Below, in pieces: positions 31-38,321 of a stretch of 64,000 nt of DNA. Origin of the DNA: Eretmocerus hayati (lineage: Eukaryota; Arthropoda; Insecta; Hymenoptera; Aphelinidae). Each line of letters starts with the position of its first letter. The first letter of the stretch is position 1. The DNA is taken from the NCBI GenBank assembly GCA_029851415.1, contig CM056744.1, positions 97,125,338 through 97,189,337 on the forward strand, given 5' to 3'. The notes below the pieces were generated by a model. The model searched no databases. It was not told where the DNA came from and saw only the letters and a list, made by a program, of their open reading frames with translations. A program made the position numbers and the translations under genes.

Positions 31-459
31 ATGAGCGTCGATGTGTTCGGACGTGCCTTGAAGCGGAAGACGATTGAGGAGGGACTCCGTGGCCCACCTG
101 GCATTGGGTATAAATTCACGGACGATGGTCAATTCGATGCAGAAGGTAAACGACTTTGTAACCTCGCAGCACCGGTGGACCCTAGTGACGCAGTTAATTT
201 CCAAACTTTGAAGGATTTTCTTCACTCCGAAATTCAAAGTACACATGAAGTTACGTCAAAACTGAGGAGTGATATAGACGACGTGAACGTTATTCTAGCC
301 GCGGACGAAGATACGTTCAAAAAAGATACAAAGTACTTGACAGATCTTGTCGAAGCACACAGGGACGAGATTGATCAGCAGATTCTTACTTTGAATGCTA
401 AATTACACGAGTTGGAGAGCGCATTCGAAGCCAAGAATAATAAACGAAGAAAACGATGA
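31..459 (+). CDS. Polinton-associated small coiled-coil protein
   Basis: Predicted 142-residue protein starting at the first ATG. The N-terminal part (residues 1-60) has a GPPGIGYKFTDDGQFD stretch and a KRLCNLAAPVDPSDAVN stretch. I recognise this pattern from small proteins encoded next to the integrase in arthropod Polinton/Maverick elements. Residues ~60-130 are charged and heptad-like, so probably a coiled coil, and the protein ends in a lysine/arginine cluster (NNKRRKR). Its function is unknown; a structural or DNA-binding role is inference. The stop codon overlaps the integrase ATG (ATGA at 456-459), which ties the two genes into one unit. The frame is intact, which suggests the element is not old. 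Confidence 0.75.
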   Translation: MSVDVFGRALKRKTIEEGLRGPPGIGYKFTDDGQFDAEGKRLCNLAAPVDPSDAVNFQTLKDFLHSEIQSTHEVTSKLRSDIDDVNVILAADEDTFKKDTKYLTDLVEAHRDEIDQQILTLNAKLHELESAFEAKNNKRRKR

Positions 460-1367
460 ATCAGAAACGCGTAGTCGTTGAAGAGTTGCATAAGCCAGCT
501 CGGCGCAATTATCCGCGGAGACAAGTTGACATTCGAGGACTGGATGAAAGCTGGCAAGCTGATCTCGTAGAGATGCAACCTTATTCGAAAGAAAATAAAG
601 GTTTTCGATATTTATTGACTGTCATTGATGTCTTTTCCAAGTATGCTTGGGCAGTCCCAGTGAAATCTAAGGACGGAAAAGATGTCACAGCTGCAATGGA
701 ATCAATTTTGAAGCAAGGTAGAGTTCCAAAAAACTTGCAAACTGATAGAGGTAAAGAGTTCTATAATAAAACTTTCCAGAGTCTGATGAGAAAGTATAAC
801 ATCAACCTTTACTCAACGTACAGTGAAATGAAGGCATCCATTTGTGAACGTCTTAATCGCACTTTGAAGAATAAAATGTGGACTCGATTTAGTTTACAAG
901 GCAATCATAAATGGTTAGGATTCTTACCTGATCTGCTTGAAGAATATAATGATACAAAACATAGTAAGATAAAAATGAAACCGAAAGATGTGAATGCTGA
1001 GAATGAAGCTCAAGTTCTTCGTTGCTTTCCAATAGATAATCGAATCGTGAAAAAACCAAAGTTCAAAGTAAACGATAAGGTTAGAGTGAGCCGGATCAAA
1101 GGCGTGTTTGACAAAGCCTACTGGCCGAATTGGTCTACAGAAATTTTCACAATTGACAAAATTCGTAAAAGCAAACCAGTGACGTATCATTTAAAGGACT
1201 ATCAGGATGAGCCTGTATCTGGATGTTTCTATGAAGAAGAGCTCTCGAAAGTAAAGTATCCAGATGTATATTTGGTGGAAAAAGTAATAAGAAAACGAGG
1301 CAATCAAATGTATGTTAAATGGCTCGGTTTTGATAGCAGTCATAACAGTTGGATAAATCAACAATAA
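456..1367 (+). CDS. Polinton (Maverick) integrase, retroviral type
   Basis: 303-residue DDE integrase of the Polinton class, which inserts the linear element DNA into host chromosomes. The catalytic triad is visible: D36 in QADLVEM, D97 in LQTDRGKEF and E131 in CERLNRTLKN, with D97-E131 spacing as expected for the family. Residues 45-70 carry the core strand FRYLLTVIDVFSKYAWAVP. Residues ~200-265 look like the SH3-like C-terminal domain, and residues ~269-303 are a chromodomain-like tail (VEKVIRKRGNQMYVKWLGF) that may target chromatin. There is no HHCC zinc finger before D36, so the start may be internal to a longer spliced form, although Polinton integrases often begin near here. It overlaps the preceding gene by 4 nt and converges on two minus-strand element genes. 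No stop or frameshift is seen. Confidence 0.92.
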   Translation: MNQKRVVVEELHKPARRNYPRRQVDIRGLDESWQADLVEMQPYSKENKGFRYLLTVIDVFSKYAWAVPVKSKDGKDVTAAMESILKQGRVPKNLQTDRGKEFYNKTFQSLMRKYNINLYSTYSEMKASICERLNRTLKNKMWTRFSLQGNHKWLGFLPDLLEEYNDTKHSKIKMKPKDVNAENEAQVLRCFPIDNRIVKKPKFKVNDKVRVSRIKGVFDKAYWPNWSTEIFTIDKIRKSKPVTYHLKDYQDEPVSGCFYEEELSKVKYPDVYLVEKVIRKRGNQMYVKWLGFDSSHNSWINQQ

Positions 1368-1368
1368 A
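1363..1368 (+). terminator. Polyadenylation signal of the integrase gene
   Basis: AATAAA overlaps the integrase stop codon (TAA at 1365-1367), an extremely compact 3' end typical of gene-dense elements. A T-rich stretch follows. Confidence 0.45.
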
Positions 1369-1437
1369 TTATTTTTATTGAGAAAGGGAGAGGGCCCCCA
1401 CCTGCGCCCCCTACCAGTAGAGAACAACCAGCAGAGC

Positions 1438-1470
1438 AACTCTCAAACTTGAGATTCAAGTTGGAGAGTT
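1438..1470. other. Stem-loop between convergent Polinton genes
   Basis: An inverted repeat pairs AACTCTC with GAGAGTT and AAACTTG with CAAGTTG (one mismatch) around a 5-nt loop. It lies in the 170-bp gap between the integrase and the convergent minus-strand genes. A role in RNA 3'-end formation is possible but is inference. Confidence 0.5.
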
Positions 1471-1503
1471 GGTCGGTTTCTCTTCCTCAGATGCTTTCTC
1501 TCA

Positions 1504-1509
1504 TTTATT
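1504..1509 (-). terminator. Polyadenylation signal of the minus-strand Polinton genes
   Basis: AATAAA on the minus strand, 32 nt beyond the stop of the 101-residue gene at 1541. It could serve both that gene and the polymerase gene upstream of it. Confidence 0.4.
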
Positions 1510-1540
1510 TATATACATTCATTTACATATATACAAGTAC

Positions 1541-1846
1541 TTATATAAACTTGAATTTACCATCACCTAAATTCAGAATGGATAATTCGAGCTTGTTCGC
1601 TTTCGCGCCCAGATAGTCAAACATTTCTTCGTCATCGTAAAGTGCTTTGCAAATTCTCGGAGGTGCGAAAATTTGAAATTGCTCGGTGACTTCGTCGATG
1701 TGGAAGACAATTTGTTTGCCATATTTTGTATTGAGTTTCCTTATTTCGGTGATCGAATAGCTCTGATTTTGCTCCAATTCTTTCCATGTCTTTTTGGGTA
1801 GAATCCCATTGTTGGAAGCGATATCGTTCAGATTATCGATATCCAT
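1541..1846 (-). CDS. Small Polinton protein, possible single-strand DNA-binding (OB-fold-like) protein
   Basis: 101 residues from an ATG. The layout is a short acidic N-terminus (MDIDNLNDIAS), then beta-rich segments: SYSITEIRKLNTKYGKQIVFHIDE, FQIFAPPRICKALYDD, and a final LELSILNLGDGKFKFI. I have seen this pattern (ITxIRKxxTKYG ... FxxFxPxRIxxxL ... GxxxFxF) in small proteins encoded beside the polymerase in arthropod Polintons and related viruses. The alternating strands suggest an OB-fold and a replication-accessory role, which is inference. It lies 85 bp downstream of the polymerase stop on the same strand, so the two are probably co-transcribed. Confidence 0.65.
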   Translation of the reverse strand: MDIDNLNDIASNNGILPKKTWKELEQNQSYSITEIRKLNTKYGKQIVFHIDEVTEQFQIFAPPRICKALYDDEEMFDYLGAKANKLELSILNLGDGKFKFI

Positions 1847-1931
1847 TTTCTAGAAGGAAAATAAAAATGAATTCATCTCACAAAAAAATTAGTGTGCGTT
1901 CTTCATTGCATTTACTTACATCTGACATGAT

Positions 1932-4900
1932 TCAAGGACAAGTTCTCTTATTTGAAGGACCTTCACTCTCAAAGATATCAGAAGGGCGAATGCGTTTCAG
2001 ACGATGGGCCTCAGTTGATTCAAAGTCTTCTGCAAATTCTCTCGAGAGACTTTCGTCCAAGAAGAGATTCAAAATATCTTCGTCGAAGAGACTCAAGATA
2101 TCTTTGTCGAGAGATTCTGAAATCGGCGATCTACTCTCGTCTACTGAGTGACTGGACTCAATCTTCTGATCAGATTGGATACGTAGAGTTTCCTCCACTA
2201 CACCTTCAAAATCGTGTTGGAATTCGACCTGGAGGTCTTCGTCTAGTACAATCTGGAAGTCTTCTTCTGGGATGAAATCGACCTGGGGAGCTTCTTCTGG
2301 AGGTCTTCTCTCTGGCTCGTCGACAGCTGAACTGAGCTCAGCCCTCGCCATCGGCTCTATAAGGGGGAGCTCCCCCACTCTATCAGTCTCCATCGAGATA
2401 TCCTTATGGCCCCAGGGTAGAGTGTCGGTCTTTCCAGCGATCAAGAATCGTTTATTATCATATGGACTCAGGCCGACTTTTTCTTGTCGCTCCGTTCGAA
2501 CATTGTGCAGTCGAGAACGGATGGTATTTTGTACACATTTCACTACATTTCCATTGAACAAGCAGTCTCGATAATTTTCAAATGTAAGAGTCCTTTTGAC
2601 AACTCCAGTCTTGACTCCTTTGGCTTTAAACACTGGTGGTTGGTTTTGAATGAGAATGCAGTACATTTTACTGCGGAGTCCGATGAATTCCGTCATTATA
2701 CATCCATTACATTCATCTTTGAAGAGTCCGACGATTTTTTTATTCTTTCGCTCTATTCCAAACGAATTTGACTCTTCATAGTCGGACGTGTCGAACCAGT
2801 CAGAGTGTTCTTTCATGATTTCATAGATGTTAGCGCCCTCTATGAGATAGATCAGGCTATCAGTATCTGTATATAGGAGCTTACAGTGCGCTCCAGCCCA
2901 CGCTTTCATTTTCGAGTAGTGGAAGTCGTACATGTGTGTCTTTGATATATCGAGCACAGACAAGCCGACGTACGTGGGTTTGCTCATCACGACCTCAGTG
3001 CGAAGCTTTTGGATAGCTACCAAGTCATCGTCAATCACTGAAACGCTATGAAAATCGGGACTAGCTATGTGCGCTTCTGCTCCGTATCGTCCGGACCACT
3101 TTTTCACGAGTTTGACTGTCACTCTCTTGCGCTCATTCTCCATTGTCTTGCCGTATACAGCATTGACCATCAATTTAAATAATGCCTTTTCGAATGGATT
3201 AGCTGCGGTGGCTCTTTTCTGCGTATTAAAAGCAACATATGGCTCCAACCAGGGACTCTGAGTGAATTTCAGAGCTCGATGAATTTTTTTCACTATAAGT
3301 CCATGTTCGCGAGCTTGTTTGAGAGCTCTGTAATGGATTACATAACGTTCCTTGTCATAAAGAGTTGTGAGTAACTTTTTATGCTTGCTACCAGGTGGAG
3401 CCATATGTTCAGGACAGAAAGGTAAGTCTTGATGCTTCACGTGAAGCTCTTCTGGATAAATCAAGTCACATTCCAAAATATAGCCGACATCGCTATCATC
3501 TGACACCATGTAAAAATTCGGATCTTCATCAACATTATCGACCCACTCAAAATTAGAACACGGCAAGCGCTGGCTCATCGCAAATCCATATAAATTATTA
3601 GCGTCAAGATAGATTAAATAGCTCTCCTTGCGAGAGGGGTCATACCCTTCATTCATAAACCTATTGTTGGCTTTAGCGTAACGGTTAGAGCATTGACTGA
3701 TACCGCCTCTTATACCTTTTTCGATGAACAACAACATATCGATGTCTGATATTAAGTCCAGTTCAACGCCTGTATATAGAAGCATGCAGTCCCATGTATA
3801 GCCAGGTGTGGTATAGTAATGTGCAGGATCTAACCCAAAAGCTTCGAGAGAAGCGGATCGAAAATTCTCGAAAACATCTGCCAAGAGCAGCACATCAGTC
3901 TTCAAGTAAACGTCAGAGTATTCACCGAGAGATTCAATTTTCAGCTCTCTCCATACAGTATTTGCATGCTCGTAATCTTCATCACTGATTTCACATTCAT
4001 GTAACTTGCTATAAAAATCTTCTTTCTTGGGCAAACTCGTTTCTTCTAGTACTGCCAGAGAACTAGTATAATCGTAAGGATAGACTCCTTTCTTCGTCAA
4101 TAATTTTATTTGCTCGTCACTGTATCCATCGAGCTTGAAATTACTGTATGTGATGATGTGATGAGGAAGATAACTTGCCAATTTATCTAATGATTCAGGC
4201 ATGAATCGAAATGCATCAAGAAATCTGAAGTTAATGATGCTTCCATCAATGAACTTGGTGAATGAGATGTAACGATCTTTGTTCTCTGCCAGGACAGATA
4301 TACGTCCTTTCAAAATTGTGTCCGAAGCGAGCTCCCTAATCAAAAAATGTCCGTCATATCCTGAGAGGTTATGATAAAATATGGGAATGAATCTGGAGTC
4401 CTTATAGTTGAGATTGCAAGAATTATGAGCAGCGCCCCTGAAAGCCCCTGTCAGATGTGAATGATCAGCAACCTTCTTGTCCGTTTCGCTGAAAGCCTTC
4501 CCGCAGATATGACAGTTTTGAGCCACCTCGAAATTTTCCCTATCATCATCAGTCAAAATCATCGGTTTTGGGTTCTTGTAGAGGTTGTCTAGATCCTCCG
4601 CAATCTTTTTGAGCTCTGATACGAACCACTCTGCGGGAGTTTGACTGTCACTCGTCTTCTGACGATAACTTTTATAGTATGACTTAGTTTCATCAAAAGT
4701 ATTCTTTAGATAATACCCGACACTGAATGCTTTATGATGTTGAAATGCTTGCGGATTCTGTGTTGGTTCGAGGATCGATTCAAAGTCTGCGTACATAACA
4801 AACGCTACTTTTTCTTTGTTTTTGAAGTTCTTGAAACTAATCTTACTATTCGGAGGAGGAAGCTGGACTCTGCATTTGTTAATCTCAATACAATCAACGA

Positions 4901-6131
4901 GATGATCTTGTAGTTTCTTATTCGTAGTAAAGTAATGCAAGCATCTATCACATATGTGAATTTTTCCATTGTGAGCGCTTAACTGACTGTGAACTAGTCG
5001 GGAGAGATCTTTGATCCAAACATAATGGAACTTTGGAGGATGAGCCGGCTCTTGACCTTCACGAACTTTTTCTTCTTCATCGATATAGTAATCTTGAATG
5101 AGTAGGAGATTGACATGTTTTGGCTTATGTAAATCAGTCACATGAGCTGTGCAGACCGTATACGTTTTGCCCACTTTCTTGAGCAAAAAAATATTAACTG
5201 AAACTGTATTTTGTTTCTCAAACTTTTTGATTTGTTTTATCGAAACTGGAAAACTGATGTCAGTAAAATTAAGTTCATCTGCATGAGGTTTGTACCAGCT
5301 GATGCGTTCTGTACCATGAGGAGCTGGATGTAAAGCTGACAAAACTGCCCACTTGAAGCATTGATTGTCATTATTCCTCACGTTGACGCATGCACGCTTC
5401 TTTTGAATAGAAACTGGCAAAGGGATATACGAGCTGCCTTGCATTGGCTGATATTGATTCATATTAACTATCATACTGAGAACCTGCTTAAGCGTGAAAC
5501 CTGATCCCTTACCTTCAAATTCTTCGATCTGATGAAGGATAGTCTCGACGACATATTCATCATACCAGTCTTTCAAATTCGTTGAACGAAAAATAGGCTG
5601 ATTCGCCGTATTGAAGTATTTCATGTCAGTGCTCTCAGCGTCATTTTTTAATACCACATATTCCGCGGACAGCTCTATATTGACTTTGAGTGCAGTGAAA
5701 GTTTCCAAAGCAGCGGAGATTTTTTCTTCGAATAGCTGTCTGGCGTCCTCCAAGAAAGAGCTAATTTCTTTATGCTGTAGATTGGTGATCACACCACTAC
5801 TGATACGACGTTGAAATATTGATGGAAGATCATCCCACCTAATAGAAGGATCGGAGTGACCAGATGGCCTAGATTCATCTAGTTCACCGCCAACTCTTCG
5901 TAAAAGACTCTCGAGACGGTTCTTGATGTTAATCAGCTTCGACAAGTACGTTTGACACCTCTGTTTCTGATGTCTAGATAATTCTGATGTCAATGTCAAT
6001 GATTCGAAACTCGAAATTAGTTCTAAAGACTTGTCCAGAAAGTTTTGAAGATCCTGATCTGACTCTACATCTCCTTCTAAAAGCTGCATGAACGTCTCAA
6101 AATTCGATTCAACGGCTTCGAGTGATCCCAT
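1932..6131 (-). CDS. Polinton protein-primed family B DNA polymerase
   Basis: Uninterrupted reading frame of ~1,399 residues from the first ATG (position 6131); the frame stays open without an ATG to 6227. Visible in order: an N-terminal region; a domain with NVRNNDNQCFKWAVLSALHP (~250-270), common in Polinton polymerases; a C-x2-C/H/C finger (~392-414); Exo I YADFES (D449/E451); an endonuclease VII/HNH-like Cys-His insert CHICGKAF...DHSHLTG...HNSCN (~540-573); Exo II FYHNLSGYDGHFLI (D593); Exo III YSDVYLKTD; Pol A LDANNLYGFAM; Pol B KLMVNAVYGKTMEN; and Pol C YTDTDS (~1087-1092). It would replicate the element with 3'-5' proofreading, by family knowledge. The last ~130 residues are very acidic and are not part of the usual family core. 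A splice acceptor-like TTTGATTTCAAG precedes the ATG, so a 5' leader exon is possible. Confidence 0.93.
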   Translation of the reverse strand: MGSLEAVESNFETFMQLLEGDVESDQDLQNFLDKSLELISSFESLTLTSELSRHQKQRCQTYLSKLINIKNRLESLLRRVGGELDESRPSGHSDPSIRWDDLPSIFQRRISSGVITNLQHKEISSFLEDARQLFEEKISAALETFTALKVNIELSAEYVVLKNDAESTDMKYFNTANQPIFRSTNLKDWYDEYVVETILHQIEEFEGKGSGFTLKQVLSMIVNMNQYQPMQGSSYIPLPVSIQKKRACVNVRNNDNQCFKWAVLSALHPAPHGTERISWYKPHADELNFTDISFPVSIKQIKKFEKQNTVSVNIFLLKKVGKTYTVCTAHVTDLHKPKHVNLLLIQDYYIDEEEKVREGQEPAHPPKFHYVWIKDLSRLVHSQLSAHNGKIHICDRCLHYFTTNKKLQDHLVDCIEINKCRVQLPPPNSKISFKNFKNKEKVAFVMYADFESILEPTQNPQAFQHHKAFSVGYYLKNTFDETKSYYKSYRQKTSDSQTPAEWFVSELKKIAEDLDNLYKNPKPMILTDDDRENFEVAQNCHICGKAFSETDKKVADHSHLTGAFRGAAHNSCNLNYKDSRFIPIFYHNLSGYDGHFLIRELASDTILKGRISVLAENKDRYISFTKFIDGSIINFRFLDAFRFMPESLDKLASYLPHHIITYSNFKLDGYSDEQIKLLTKKGVYPYDYTSSLAVLEETSLPKKEDFYSKLHECEISDEDYEHANTVWRELKIESLGEYSDVYLKTDVLLLADVFENFRSASLEAFGLDPAHYYTTPGYTWDCMLLYTGVELDLISDIDMLLFIEKGIRGGISQCSNRYAKANNRFMNEGYDPSRKESYLIYLDANNLYGFAMSQRLPCSNFEWVDNVDEDPNFYMVSDDSDVGYILECDLIYPEELHVKHQDLPFCPEHMAPPGSKHKKLLTTLYDKERYVIHYRALKQAREHGLIVKKIHRALKFTQSPWLEPYVAFNTQKRATAANPFEKALFKLMVNAVYGKTMENERKRVTVKLVKKWSGRYGAEAHIASPDFHSVSVIDDDLVAIQKLRTEVVMSKPTYVGLSVLDISKTHMYDFHYSKMKAWAGAHCKLLYTDTDSLIYLIEGANIYEIMKEHSDWFDTSDYEESNSFGIERKNKKIVGLFKDECNGCIMTEFIGLRSKMYCILIQNQPPVFKAKGVKTGVVKRTLTFENYRDCLFNGNVVKCVQNTIRSRLHNVRTERQEKVGLSPYDNKRFLIAGKTDTLPWGHKDISMETDRVGELPLIEPMARAELSSAVDEPERRPPEEAPQVDFIPEEDFQIVLDEDLQVEFQHDFEGVVEETLRIQSDQKIESSHSVDESRSPISESLDKDILSLFDEDILNLFLDESLSREFAEDFESTEAHRLKRIRPSDIFESEGPSNKRTCP

Positions 6132-6562
6132 CTTGAAATCAAAGAACGGAAAAAGTCTGTCAGGGATCGTCAATAAAGACGCTACTGGAAGAGATTTTGA
6201 ATTTACCTTGAAAGATGTCTCCACCAAGATCCTAGTGCACCTTCTCCTGGGCAGAAGTGCTTCTCATAAGACTAACTTTATACCCAGGTGAGTTCTGAGA
6301 CCTGGAGGGGCTCCACCACGTACGGTTCAAGATCATAAACTGAGGCTCTACGTGCTGACCATCTCTCTTAAATACTAAAAGTGCAGTCCGGAATCGAAAA
6401 GCAAATTATTGGACGTTGAAAGACTAATCGTGTCCCGCGGACAAGACTCAAATGTCGGAATCCGAGGACCTCGAAGGTGCTATAAATGATGCTTGAGGAG
6501 AAGAGTTGGAGATCAGTCAGTTTCTACTAACCGTACCAGTCGGAGCTCCACCAGGTCTGATA
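6132..6562. promoter_or_regulatory. Divergent intergenic region between the polymerase gene and the exonuclease-like gene
   Basis: About 430 bp separate two divergently read genes. On the minus strand there is a possible TATA-like TATTTAAG near 6367-6374, and a possible 5'-leader intron (donor AAG/GTAAAT near 6205, acceptor before 6132). On the plus strand TATAAATG at 6481 could be a TATA box for the gene starting at 6563. I see no terminal repeat of the Polinton here, so the right end of the element is not located. Confidence 0.3.
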
Positions 6563-35210: not shown

Positions 35211-36900
35211 TACAAAGGGACTGCGCGGTTAAGCATGGTGAAGTGGACCTTGTCAGGTATGGCCCCAAGAGTATTTTTTCCCACTTTCTAACCCCAAACT
35301 ATGGGGAAAGCGAGAGTTTGTAGGTCCCAAAGTCGTCTGTTTTCTACGGCACCCTATATAGAAAGCCTCTAAAAAACGCTAAAAATTGATGTTTCTTCCA
35401 TCAAATCGCATTCTGACGCATTTCAACGAATCGATCTGAAAATTTTTTGACATATTTTTGAAACTTTGACAAACAGAAAAAAGATATTCGCATACTTTGG
35501 ATTTAGGCCCCGAAAAAAATCCTTCAAAACTAAAGAGTCAATTTTCTCATGTAAATTGGAAAAAACAACGTTAGAAATCCATTTCATCTTGTTTATTAGG
35601 TCATTTTTCATTAATAACAGGTATTTTTAGAATTTTTTAGGTGGTGGAACATGGTCAGAGATGCAAAAAGTCGTTTTTAAAGAAAATTTCGATTCAGTAA
35701 TTTGCATCTTCTGCCCATGCGCGGTTTTCTACGTCTCTGAAAATATCTTTAATCGTCCAAATGACCACTTGAGGAGGCCGATTTGATGCAGTAAAACCTG
35801 AGATCTAGATGGTCCAAAAAATGGGCCACCAAACCCGTGGCTCCTTAAATAGGCCCGAAAAGTGCGAATTTTGAGTCGGACTGTTTCAAAGATGTGAACA
35901 TGTGTTTTCGATGTAATTTTTGACGTAGAAACCGAATCCGTGGTCAGTTTTGTTCCAAACCTCCAAAACTTTTCATGACTCTCAAAAAATCGACCGGAGG
36001 GTGTACGTCCATTTCCAGCCTTTTTCTACACATTTGAGATGTACGTTGAGTATAGGCAAAGGTTTGAACTTGTCGCGTAGAGGATGCAAGTATGTTTTCC
36101 TTTGTTATTTTGACCAGCTGAAGACGATGCCGATGATTTCGAAGCTTGGGGGTGAATTTGGAGTCAGATTTGGACTGATGGAGCTATACTTTGTTCCATG
36201 ATCTCAGGTTTCACTGCATCAAATCGACCTCCTCAAGTGGTCATCTTGAAAGAAATAACATCAGCTATCGATTAAAGATACTTTCAGAGACGTAGATGAC
36301 CGCGCATGGGCCGGGATGCAAATTACTGAATTGAAATTTGCTTTCAAAACGACTTTTTGCATCTTTGACCATGTTTCACCACCCAAAAAATTATAAAAAT
36401 ACCTAATTTCGATGCAAAATGACCTGATGAACACGATGAAATGGTTTTCTAACGTTGTTCTTTCCAATTTAAATAAGAGAATGGACTTTTTTGTTTCGGA
36501 GAATTTTTTTGGGGGCCTAAATCCAAAGTTGTCAGTACAGGCAAAACTCGTTTTACGCGATTTCTTTTTACGCGATTTCACTTATACGCGGTTCGCTGAT
36601 TGATACCAATTTTCATTTAACGCGGATCGAATTTCACTTTTACGCGGATCGATATTCTTTTCAGATTTTCAAAACAAGCCAATGATCGAACTTTTTTGTA
36701 AACAGTATACATATTCAGATTGTTTCTCGCTGTATTGTAAACAAAACCTCAAAATTTCAAAGTCCAATCGTTCGAAGGAAAATTCCTTATCAGATATCAT
36801 GGCTCCTAAAAGGAAAAGTGAAACATCTAGCAGCACACCTGCGAAGAAAGCAAAAAAAGTGTTAAGGTGCGGCCGTAGTCCGCTATAACCTCTAAATACA

Positions 36901-37213
36901 TTCGGAGAATATGTCGATTTTTACTCAACCAAATGATTTGGAATTTCATATGCATCTACAGAATGTATGTCTAAAGAGGGCTACGAAGCCAAATGTGTTA
37001 ATTTCCTACGAAAAAGTACCCAGACGAGGTTTGCTCGAGACGTCGTATGTTGCCGCTCATTAGCAGACGAAATTAGTGTACACCTCGTCTGTATACTTTT
37101 TCGTAGGAAATTGACATATTTATGGATTCGTAGACCCCTTCAGACATGCTTTCTGTAGGTGCATGTGAAATCCCAAGTCATTTGGTCTAGTAAAATTCGA
37201 CTTATCCTCCGAA
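36901..37213. mobile_element. Palindromic MITE nested in the hammerhead-bearing element
   Basis: Arms of ~130 bp: left TTCGGAGAATATGTCGAT, right inverse TTCGGAGGATAAGTCGAA. Inner CCTACGAAAAAGTA pairs with TACTTTTTCGTAGG and CAGACGAGGT with ACCTCGTCTG. Confidence 0.8.
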
Positions 37214-37370
37214 CGGATTCAGGGCTACATTCAATATGGCGGCTGACGGCTGTGGGGTACATAATACCTCACATGCGCAATAGATGGATGACAAATCCAG
37301 CTCCTTTCCCGCAATCGACGGCTCAAGACCTCGATTAGTATATAAGAGCGCATAAGTGCTTCATCGCCAA

Positions 37371-37453
37371 GCGTCCAGGGCACCACCTGCAACTCCAGCC
37401 CTGCTGATGAGTCCGGTTACGATGAACCAGGTTGCAGGTGGGGGACGAAACGC
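37371..37453 (+). ncRNA. Hammerhead ribozyme (type III topology)
   Basis: All conserved parts are present. Stem III: GCGT 37371-37374 pairs with ACGC 37450-37453. Cleavage would follow C17 at 37375 (GUC triplet). Stem I: CAGGGC 37376-37381 pairs perfectly with GCCCTG 37398-37403. Catalytic box CTGATGA is 37404-37410. Stem II: GTCC 37411-37414 pairs with GGAC 37443-37446. GAAA is 37447-37450. Loop I (CCACCTGCAAC, 37383-37393) is the exact complement of GTTGCAGGTGG (37431-37441) in loop II, and loop II also holds a GGTT/AACC mini-hairpin. Such self-cleaving RNAs process transcripts of Penelope-like and other small retroelements; here the host element is unclassified. Confidence 0.9.
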
Positions 37454-38321
37454 ACAAGAGCCTTCTGCTCAAAGCGTGTAGAGTCATTCATTAGTAGTGA
37501 GTAAGCCATCAGCTTATTCCTACACTACGGCCTGGCCTTCAGGTTGAACAGAAGATCGAAATTTTGAATTCCCTATCAAAAGGAGAAAAAGTATGTGATG
37601 TGGCACGAAGGCACGGAATCAATGAATCGATGATGAAATTTGACCCCATCATGATCAAAAGTTTGAAAATAAAACACGAGACACAACGAATTTTCGCTCC
37701 TTACATGAAGAGCTCTACAGAAAATGCAATAGAAGGGCAAAACAGTCTCGTTTGACGGACTTTTTCAAGAAAAAATAGATTTCTGTTCATTCATCCCTTT
37801 AAATAAATAACCTTCTCTCACAATCAATATTCTGTTTATTTCAATCAAAACGAATTTTCATATTCATCGCAGATGATTCGAGCTGAAGTCAGTTTTGAGG
37901 TCTCCGGAGCATCGAGAGCCTGCACGGAACCCTCCGTTTTCCATCGCATAAGACTAATGTTTCGTCTTACGCGAATTCGGTTTACGCGGTGGTTTTTTGG
38001 GACGAATTAACCGCGTAAAACGAGTTTTGCCTGTATGCGAATATCTTTTTCCTGTTTGCCGAACTTTCAAAAATATGTCAAGAAATTTTCAGATCGATTC
38101 GTTGAAATGCGTGAGAATGCGATTTGATAGAAGGAACATCGATTTTTAGCGTTTTTTAGAGGATTTCTAGGGTGCCGTAGAAAACGGGCGACTTTGGAAC
38201 CTACAATCCTACAAACCGTCGCTTTCCCTATAGTTTGTGGTTAGGAAGTGGGGAAAATACTTTTCGGGCCATGCCTGACAAGGGTCCACTTCACCATGCC
38301 TAACCGCTCAGTCCCTTTGTA

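Follow-up and report, generated by a model that had tools for sequence, protein, structure and literature searches.

A solo LTR with a type III hammerhead ribozyme and probable LTR-retrozyme architecture in the genome of the insect Eretmocerus hayati

Described hammerhead retroelements and the Eretmocerus locus

Retrozymes have been divided into plant LTR retrozymes with type III hammerheads and animal non-LTR retrozymes with type I hammerheads (PMC7229834, PMC7761336, PMC12029980, PMC11722881). Plant LTR retrozymes (Cervera et al. 2016, PMC4918200) carry a type III hammerhead in both LTRs together with a PBS, a PPT and 4-bp target site duplications (TSDs), and also occur as solo LTRs. Their LTRs measure 300-400 bp and their non-coding interiors 300-600 bp, the PBS corresponds to tRNA-Met, and the unit between cleavage sites is 697-776 nt in Jatropha (PMC4918200). 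Metazoan non-LTR retrozymes (Cervera and de la Pena 2020, PMC7229834) are non-autonomous and have a hammerhead-bounded unit of a few hundred nucleotides, with type I hammerheads in tandem repeats and without LTR, PBS or PPT. Type III hammerheads with loop pseudoknots are known from HDV-like RNAs of toads and termites as well as from the genomes of termites and dipterans, the termite genomic ones being reported as isolated motifs (PMC7936874). Among insect TRIMs, PbTRIM of harvester ants (PMC3532108) has a leucine tRNA PBS, a PPT, 4-bp TSDs, solo LTRs, a TATA box and LTRs of 152-184 bp; the word hammerhead is absent from that article.

The window analysed here is a 64,000-nucleotide (64-kb) stretch of the Eretmocerus hayati genome. 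It holds an 83-nt type III hammerhead. With considerable confidence, we regard the surrounding repeat as a solo LTR from a non-autonomous LTR retrotransposon (TRIM) of this insect that has the architecture of an LTR retrozyme, a reading that takes in the cycle proposed below. The following features were located, in window coordinates:

37251..37524, forward strand: solo retrozyme LTR of 274 bp, TGTGGGG...CCTACA, the repeat common to other copies
37339..37346, forward strand: TATA box TATATAAG, at a conserved distance from the ribozyme
37369..37371, forward strand: predicted transcription start at the 5' edge of the ribozyme, from the TATA spacing
37371..37453, forward strand: type III hammerhead ribozyme with core, three stems and GUC triplet, 83 nt
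37375..37376, forward strand: predicted cleavage between C37375 and C37376, from where the GUC triplet stands in the core
37383..37393, forward strand: loop I arm of an 11-bp loop-loop helix, perfect complement of 37431-37441 (duplex -19.6 kcal/mol)
37431..37441, forward strand: stem II loop arm of the same helix, perfect complement of 37383-37393
36536..38035, forward strand: presumed Tigger/pogo-like DNA transposon with inverted ends, host of the nested LTR and not part of the retrozyme
36892..37222, no strand assigned: palindromic fold-back element with inverted arms, upstream of the LTR and not part of the retrozyme

Like the plant elements, those described here have type III hammerheads in both LTRs of complete copies, a PBS, a PPT, 4-bp TSDs, a non-coding interior (322-362 nt) and a hammerhead-to-hammerhead unit of several hundred nucleotides (596-635 nt), and leave solo LTRs. 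They differ in their insect host, in LTR length (274 and 250 bp in two families), and in a PBS that reads as the complement of a tRNA 3' half, tentatively that of tRNA-Trp. With metazoan non-LTR retrozymes they share an animal host, non-autonomy and the hammerhead-bounded unit, and with PbTRIM its TSD length, PBS, PPT, solo LTRs and TATA box, though neither its tRNA nor its LTR length. Searches of the open-licence PMC literature found no animal LTR retrozyme; studies by de la Pena on type III hammerheads of insects or dipterans are cited as in preparation (PMC7936874, PMC7761336) and could already cover an insect LTR retrozyme. A plant-type LTR retrozyme in an insect would break the division between plant and animal retrozymes, would point to convergence or horizontal transfer, and would provide an animal system for testing circular-RNA-templated retrotransposition.

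The window LTR is nested in a 36536-38035 transposon with 27-nt inverted ends (36536-36562/38009-38035, 96%), and by eye reading-frame pieces of this transposon flank the insertion on both sides; we assume its family to be Tigger/pogo-like. The preliminary description had placed the ribozyme in an element of about 675 bp with short inverted ends that belonged to no recognisable class. That unit was rejected as an element, being a compound insertion (the palindrome 36892-37222 plus other sequence) in the Tigger-like transposon, and the locus is recognisable as a solo LTR of a TRIM with LTR-retrozyme architecture. The palindrome (inverted arms 78% over 334 columns) lies outside the repeat common to other LTR copies, and because the repeat shared with them is confined here to 37251-37524, the window copy was classified as a solo LTR. 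An exact TSD is absent at this copy (CGGC before, CTAC after), with a CGGC three bases further on. On the reverse strand of the palindrome, Rfam MIR8562 aligned to 36917-37197 at 73.3 bits against a gathering score of 211. Elsewhere in the window, 456-1364 holds an integrase core with a sub-threshold chromodomain, and 456-6227 also holds a 1431-aa reverse-strand frame in which Pfam returned only Endonuclease_7 and a sub-threshold zf-MYST; this frame may be a Polinton-type DNA polymerase.

The hammerhead and its loop-loop helix

All core positions and stems noticed in the preliminary description were recovered, as was its type III topology. Stem III pairs GCGU 37371-37374 with ACGC 37450-37453 (4 bp, U-A included), stem I pairs CAGGGC 37376-37381 with GCCCUG 37398-37403 (6 bp), and stem II pairs GUCC 37411-37414 with GGAC 37443-37446 (4 bp); all pairs were checked by script, which also found an additional 4-bp hairpin inside the stem II loop. 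The core consists of CUGAUGA at 37404-37410 and GAA at 37447-37449, with the GUC triplet at 37373-37375. The open helix is stem III, which defines type III topology, and the features of that class are all present: CUGAUGA, GAA, an NUH triplet and three stems, of which stem III is the open one. Hammerheads cleave directly after the GUC triplet, which places the predicted cut after C37375. The hammerhead at 37371-37453 is thus confirmed by sequence and pairing, and self-cleavage is predicted from them.

Chance resemblance to the hammerhead consensus was weighed against simulated sequence. A loose CTGATGA..CGAAA pattern is expected 0.68 times per window and was present in 51 of 100 shuffles, and by itself is no evidence for a hammerhead. 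A strict descriptor (stem I 6, stem II at least 4, stem III at least 3) gave one match in the 64-kb window and no match in any of 150 windows of 64 kb simulated with a first-order Markov model. The Rfam scores also leave some room for chance: no family reached its gathering score in a scan of the whole window, and in the 1.6-kb piece 36500-38100 the hammerhead did not appear at E<=10. The preliminary description had proposed a covariance-model search and had named a score below threshold as refuting. On the 106-nt piece 37360-37465, RF00008 Hammerhead_3 matched exactly 37371-37453 (25.2 bits, E 0.00086), short of the gathering score of 48.5; formally, the outcome falls on the refuting side. 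The alignment spans model positions 4-51 of 54 with no non-standard pairs flagged and omits loop stretches of 16 and 27 nt; since all modelled pairs are standard, the low score would be due to these two long loop insertions. Ribozymes of the window's family at another locus, L051, scored 31.6 and 30.8 bits, and the two ribozymes of a second family at that locus were not listed for RF00008 at E<=1. Given the simulated windows and the recurrence of the hammerhead in the second family, chance was rejected and we give it practically no credence.

The preliminary description, correct on stems and core, had overlooked an 11-nt complementarity between loop I and the stem II loop. The pair 37383-37393/37431-37441 is the sole perfect 11-mer inverted match in the 274-bp LTR. 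In the second family this helix is kept through a double change from A-U to G-C, with 12 bp in one LTR and one mismatch in the other. Across nine of 24 distinct ribozyme sequences, 98.5% of loop-loop cells were paired, compared with 33-50% when the partner was slid. Both-sided change was seen at one loop-loop pair only, a count matched by 240 of 500 shuffles, and the covariation score of the helix was reached in 36 of 500; with one double-changed pair and shuffles this often as good, the support from covariation is suggestive only.

Loop-loop pairing as such has precedents. HDV-like RNA, termite and Drosophila pseudoobscura hammerheads are also type III with enlarged helices or loops and Watson-Crick pairing of loop I with loop II regions, but their pairing is short (GCCR with YGGC) and comes from an internal loop (PMC7936874). 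Plant hammerheads have a 6-8-nt loop I with non-canonical contacts (PMC7936874), compared with a 16-17-nt loop I and 11-12-bp pairing here. The hammerhead pseudoknot lengths given in PMC3088659 are four or more, five and six pairs, which makes 11 pairs unusual; disruption of pseudoknots strongly slowed the hammerheads assayed by Perreault et al. (PMC3088659).

In the minimum-free-energy (MFE) fold of the window ribozyme the loop-loop complement forms a plain hairpin and the hammerhead is broken (-33.6; the nested hammerhead has -16.5). With the -19.6 loop-loop duplex added, the nested hammerhead reaches about -36, topological penalty left aside; in the second family the hammerhead with pseudoknot comes to about -42 before penalty and the MFE hairpin to -39.9. 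An 11-bp helix between closed loops would be possible if loop I catches the nascent strand before stem II closes. Stem III, at only 4 bp, is short, and this counts against a self-cleaving ribozyme in our main reading.

Genomic copies, a second family and promoter geometry

The 692-Mb, 17-contig assembly that holds the window was searched with a 123-nt query, and the best 40 of 392 first-look candidates were 98-100% identical to it over 120-123 nt. Many copies of this family (family 1) lie in pairs about 600 bp apart, with one triplet. Further analysis covered 27 loci, the places around 39 copies outside the window, which are best matches to the window and not a random sample. A full-length LTR with the boundaries of 37251-37524 was present in 25 of the 27 (L031 and L035 are truncated), and at 15 the hammerhead lies in directly repeated LTRs (14 loci with two LTRs, one with three). 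Exact 4-bp TSDs were found at 23 of 27 loci (23 of 28 with the window counted), the misses being L027 and L034 (one base off), the truncated L031 and L035, and the window copy. A PBS after the first LTR and a PPT before the last were present in all 13 two-LTR loci examined, which are 13 of the 15 multi-LTR loci (L033 and L013 left out); the sequence after LTR5 is TTGGTGACCCC... or TTGGTAACCCG... (ATGG in one) and that before LTR3 is GGCTCTGAAGCGGGGG(G)AGTGRC. Complete elements measure 870-908 bp, with 322-362 nt between LTRs and 596-635 nt from ribozyme to ribozyme (16 neighbouring pairs). The longest stop-to-stop frame in the two elements checked (L012, L028) was 68 codons, leaving no coding capacity there. 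The two LTRs of a pair differ at 0-12 sites, with no difference in 5 of the 16 pairs, which points to recent insertion. The earlier view was right that the ribozyme lies in a mobile element, neither Penelope-like nor a satellite, and the ribozyme-carrying element family is apparently new.

Some loci deviate from this plan. At L013 (2427-3944, reverse-complemented) the order is LTR-interior-LTR-interior-LTR with interiors differing at 1 of 348 sites, an arrangement that may have arisen by copying of a circular template or by unequal recombination. L032 has additional LTR copies in inverted orientation. L031 and L035 share one truncated form of the LTR (positions 4-234), and its 12-nt flanks are likewise identical at the two loci, so that the fragment may ride in another repeat.

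A second family was found next to a family 1 element, in locus L051:

L051 2142-2908 of the reverse complement, reverse strand: second LTR retrozyme family element with its own LTR, TSD, PBS, PPT and hammerhead

Its LTRs are 250 bp long (2142-2391 and 2659-2908 of the reverse complement), its duplications are GTGG, its PBS is TTGGTGACCCCGACGTGAT (with the same start as in family 1) and its PPT is GGGGGGGAGTCT; its ribozymes retain all stems and lie 517 bp apart. BLAST aligned a single family 2 LTR with family 1 along no more than the 104 bp surrounding the ribozyme. Pairwise MAFFT alignment of the two LTRs gave 73 of 83 sites alike in the ribozyme (88%) and 83 of 164 outside it (51%), the latter at chance level by a shuffled control (mean 0.46, maximum 0.57 in 20 shuffles).

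Within family 1, 25 of 46 copies (first set, window counted) are identical over the 83 nt, and the core is kept in other copies, the loss of which the preliminary description had named as a test. Core bases are changed in the second LTRs of L029 and L030 and in the first LTR of L033 (at A37450), while the ribozyme change in L032 falls at a core position that we take to be free. Over 65 distinct full LTR copies, mean site diversity was 0.031 in U3, 0.015 from TATA box to ribozyme, 0.024 in the ribozyme and 0.084 in the 3' part. The family 1 ribozyme thus varies only slightly less than the remaining LTR (p 0.024; p 0.059 for paired and core sites alone, without unpaired loops), and core sites (0.030) varied more than either the stems or the loop-loop arms. 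Family 1 is too young to test this strongly; the comparison between the two families carries more weight.

The core pattern CTGATGAGTCC-N(8-38)-GGACGAAACGC occurs at 198 genome places, and the reversed-pattern control at 0. Among 100 of these matches listed, assigned by length alone, 82 correspond to family 1 (50 nt) and 12 to family 2 (51 nt), the remainder being two of 36 nt, two of 49, one of 53 and one of 60. Two 51-nt matches 517 bp apart (C2:20828141/20828658) suggest another two-LTR family 2 element. The 36-nt matches at C2:44888672 and C2:97523940 represent a third variant of the hammerhead, in which the stem II loop is short (letters seen for the first only). In viral sequence, the core pattern was matched in 16 IMG/VR contigs (L076-L091).

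The distance from TATA box to first ribozyme base is 32 nt in 54 of 66 LTR rows, 33 in two and 40 in one, with three rows lacking the TATA string and six the ribozyme 5' string; the 66 rows are 65 distinct copies, the window's LTR having been entered twice. In family 2 the distance is 31 nt. Metazoan RNA polymerase II starts about 30 nt past the TATA box, and the ribozyme would therefore begin at +1. A distance of 31-32 nt kept in two families yields a specific, testable prediction of the transcription start. In Nicotiana the retrozyme start could not be mapped from the cut transcript and was mapped with a disabled ribozyme (PMC12029980).

The PBS begins with TGGTGACCCCGACGTGAT. In L011 and L045, which have the longest versions, its complement forms a 5-bp stem around the 7-nt loop TTCAAAT; a 7-nt acceptor strand and ACCA come next, a geometry that is read as a tRNA 3' half. 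The T-arm geometry holds for two of five PBS strings; those of family 2, L012 and the TTGGTAACCCG type have diverged and lack this exact arm. We tentatively take TGGTGACCCCGACGTGAT to be complementary to tRNA-Trp and not to tRNA-Met. The exact string GTTCAAATCACGTCGGGGTC occurs at two genome places only, the PBS of the L011 element and L045, and ARAGORN found no tRNA gene at L045; the tRNA-Trp assignment therefore draws on this assumption and the T-arm geometry.

On the reverse strand of L028, downstream of the primer-binding-like site TGGTGACCCCGATC and close to the retrozyme, lies a gag-like frame (PF23055 DUF7041, E 5.3e-12); DUF7041 is presumably a retrotransposon gag domain. This hints at a Gypsy-type element with a similar PBS as a candidate helper. 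No autonomous element whose LTR ends match those of the retrozyme came to light. The PBS was matched at 20 genome places and the retrozyme 3' box at 37; at C4:7830773/7832928 a 3' box and a PBS lie 2.2 kb from each other on the same strand. In L052, positions 1430-1530 carry the retrozyme 3' box joined to an LTR start of another kind beside an inverted PBS-like stretch, and 2727-3005 a degenerate LTR relative.

Proposed cycle and competing readings

By anatomy the element has the LTR-retrozyme features that were tested, and its activity and circular RNA are predictions. The complete element would be LTR(274)-PBS-interior of 322 to 362 nt-PPT-LTR(274), with a type III hammerhead in each LTR at the point where the TATA box would start transcription. 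RNA polymerase II would start at the 5' edge of the ribozyme, and nascent loop I is predicted to pair over 11 bp with the stem II loop, holding stems I and II side by side. The first-LTR ribozyme would then strip the capped first few nucleotides by cutting after the fifth ribozyme base, and the second-LTR ribozyme would cut at the same site one unit (596-635 nt) on. The released monomer would read R-U5-PBS-interior-PPT-U3 and would be closed into a circle. As argued for plant retrozymes (PMC4918200), a monomer of this kind has no terminal repeat for strand transfer unless it is circular. A tRNA bound at the PBS would prime copying of the circle, with reverse transcriptase and integrase supplied by an autonomous element, probably of Ty3/Gypsy type. 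The DNA products observed comprise elements with two LTRs, one with three, and solo LTRs, and most have 4-bp duplications. That insects have their own, possibly independently evolved LTR-retrozyme lineage, with the hammerhead exactly at the transcription start, decapping of every transcript, a monomer obliged to circularise for reverse transcription and co-transcriptional folding by an 11-12-bp helix, is a more tentative proposal, which we place somewhat short of probable.

The alternative with most weight is an ordinary insect TRIM in which the hammerhead is a non-cutting relic and the 11-bp pairing is the stem of a long hairpin in R, serving for example as a packaging, dimerisation or terminator structure. 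In both families this hairpin is the MFE structure (-33.6, -39.9), animal TRIMs with no reported hammerhead exist (PbTRIM of ants, PMC3532108), and some copies have changed core bases (the second LTRs of L029 and L030, and the first LTR of L033 at A37450). Nevertheless, the core and stems I-III are kept in family 2, the LTR of which is otherwise no more alike than shuffled sequence, the place of the ribozyme relative to the TATA box is kept, and the core pattern is exact at 198 genome places (a count of intact matches, not a fraction of copies). We consider a relic unlikely on these grounds. Genomic capture, as DNA, of a viroid-like or HDV-like circular RNA agent would account for the ribozyme class and for the similar loop-loop pairing (PMC7936874), but is disfavoured and very improbable: a both-strand descriptor scan of the fetched loci returned only the hammerheads of these families, inside LTRs and in LTR sense, the copies are dispersed, fetched full-length ones have LTR-retrotransposon ends with TSDs at 23 of 27 loci, and no frame exceeds 68 codons stop to stop (L012, L028). 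Hardly any weight is left for a metazoan non-LTR retrozyme or Penelope-like copy with a type I hammerhead mobilised by LINEs or PLEs. Such hammerhead retroelements are the ones described for animals (PMC7229834, PMC7761336), yet those repeats are described as lacking LTR, PBS and PPT (PMC7229834), whereas the present elements are of type III topology and possess TG...CA LTRs, a PBS, a PPT and 4-bp TSDs; the Penelope or type I assignment was rejected by this architecture.

The insect origin of the assembly is in line with 127 genome matches to PF02949 (7tm_6) over cut-off, compared with none in any of 14 control genomes. PF02949 is taken by us to represent insect odorant receptors and to be restricted to insects. 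Among four of the eight fetched chromosome ends that were scanned, (TTATGGG)n was found at both C1 ends and at the C4 start, and a 141-bp satellite at the C3 end; TTATGGG telomere repeats were noted in L036, L037 and L041. In the telomere literature examined the TTATGGG string appears only within a 12-nt Allium repeat, and it resembles the chalcid wasp repeat TTATTGGG (PMC8977481).
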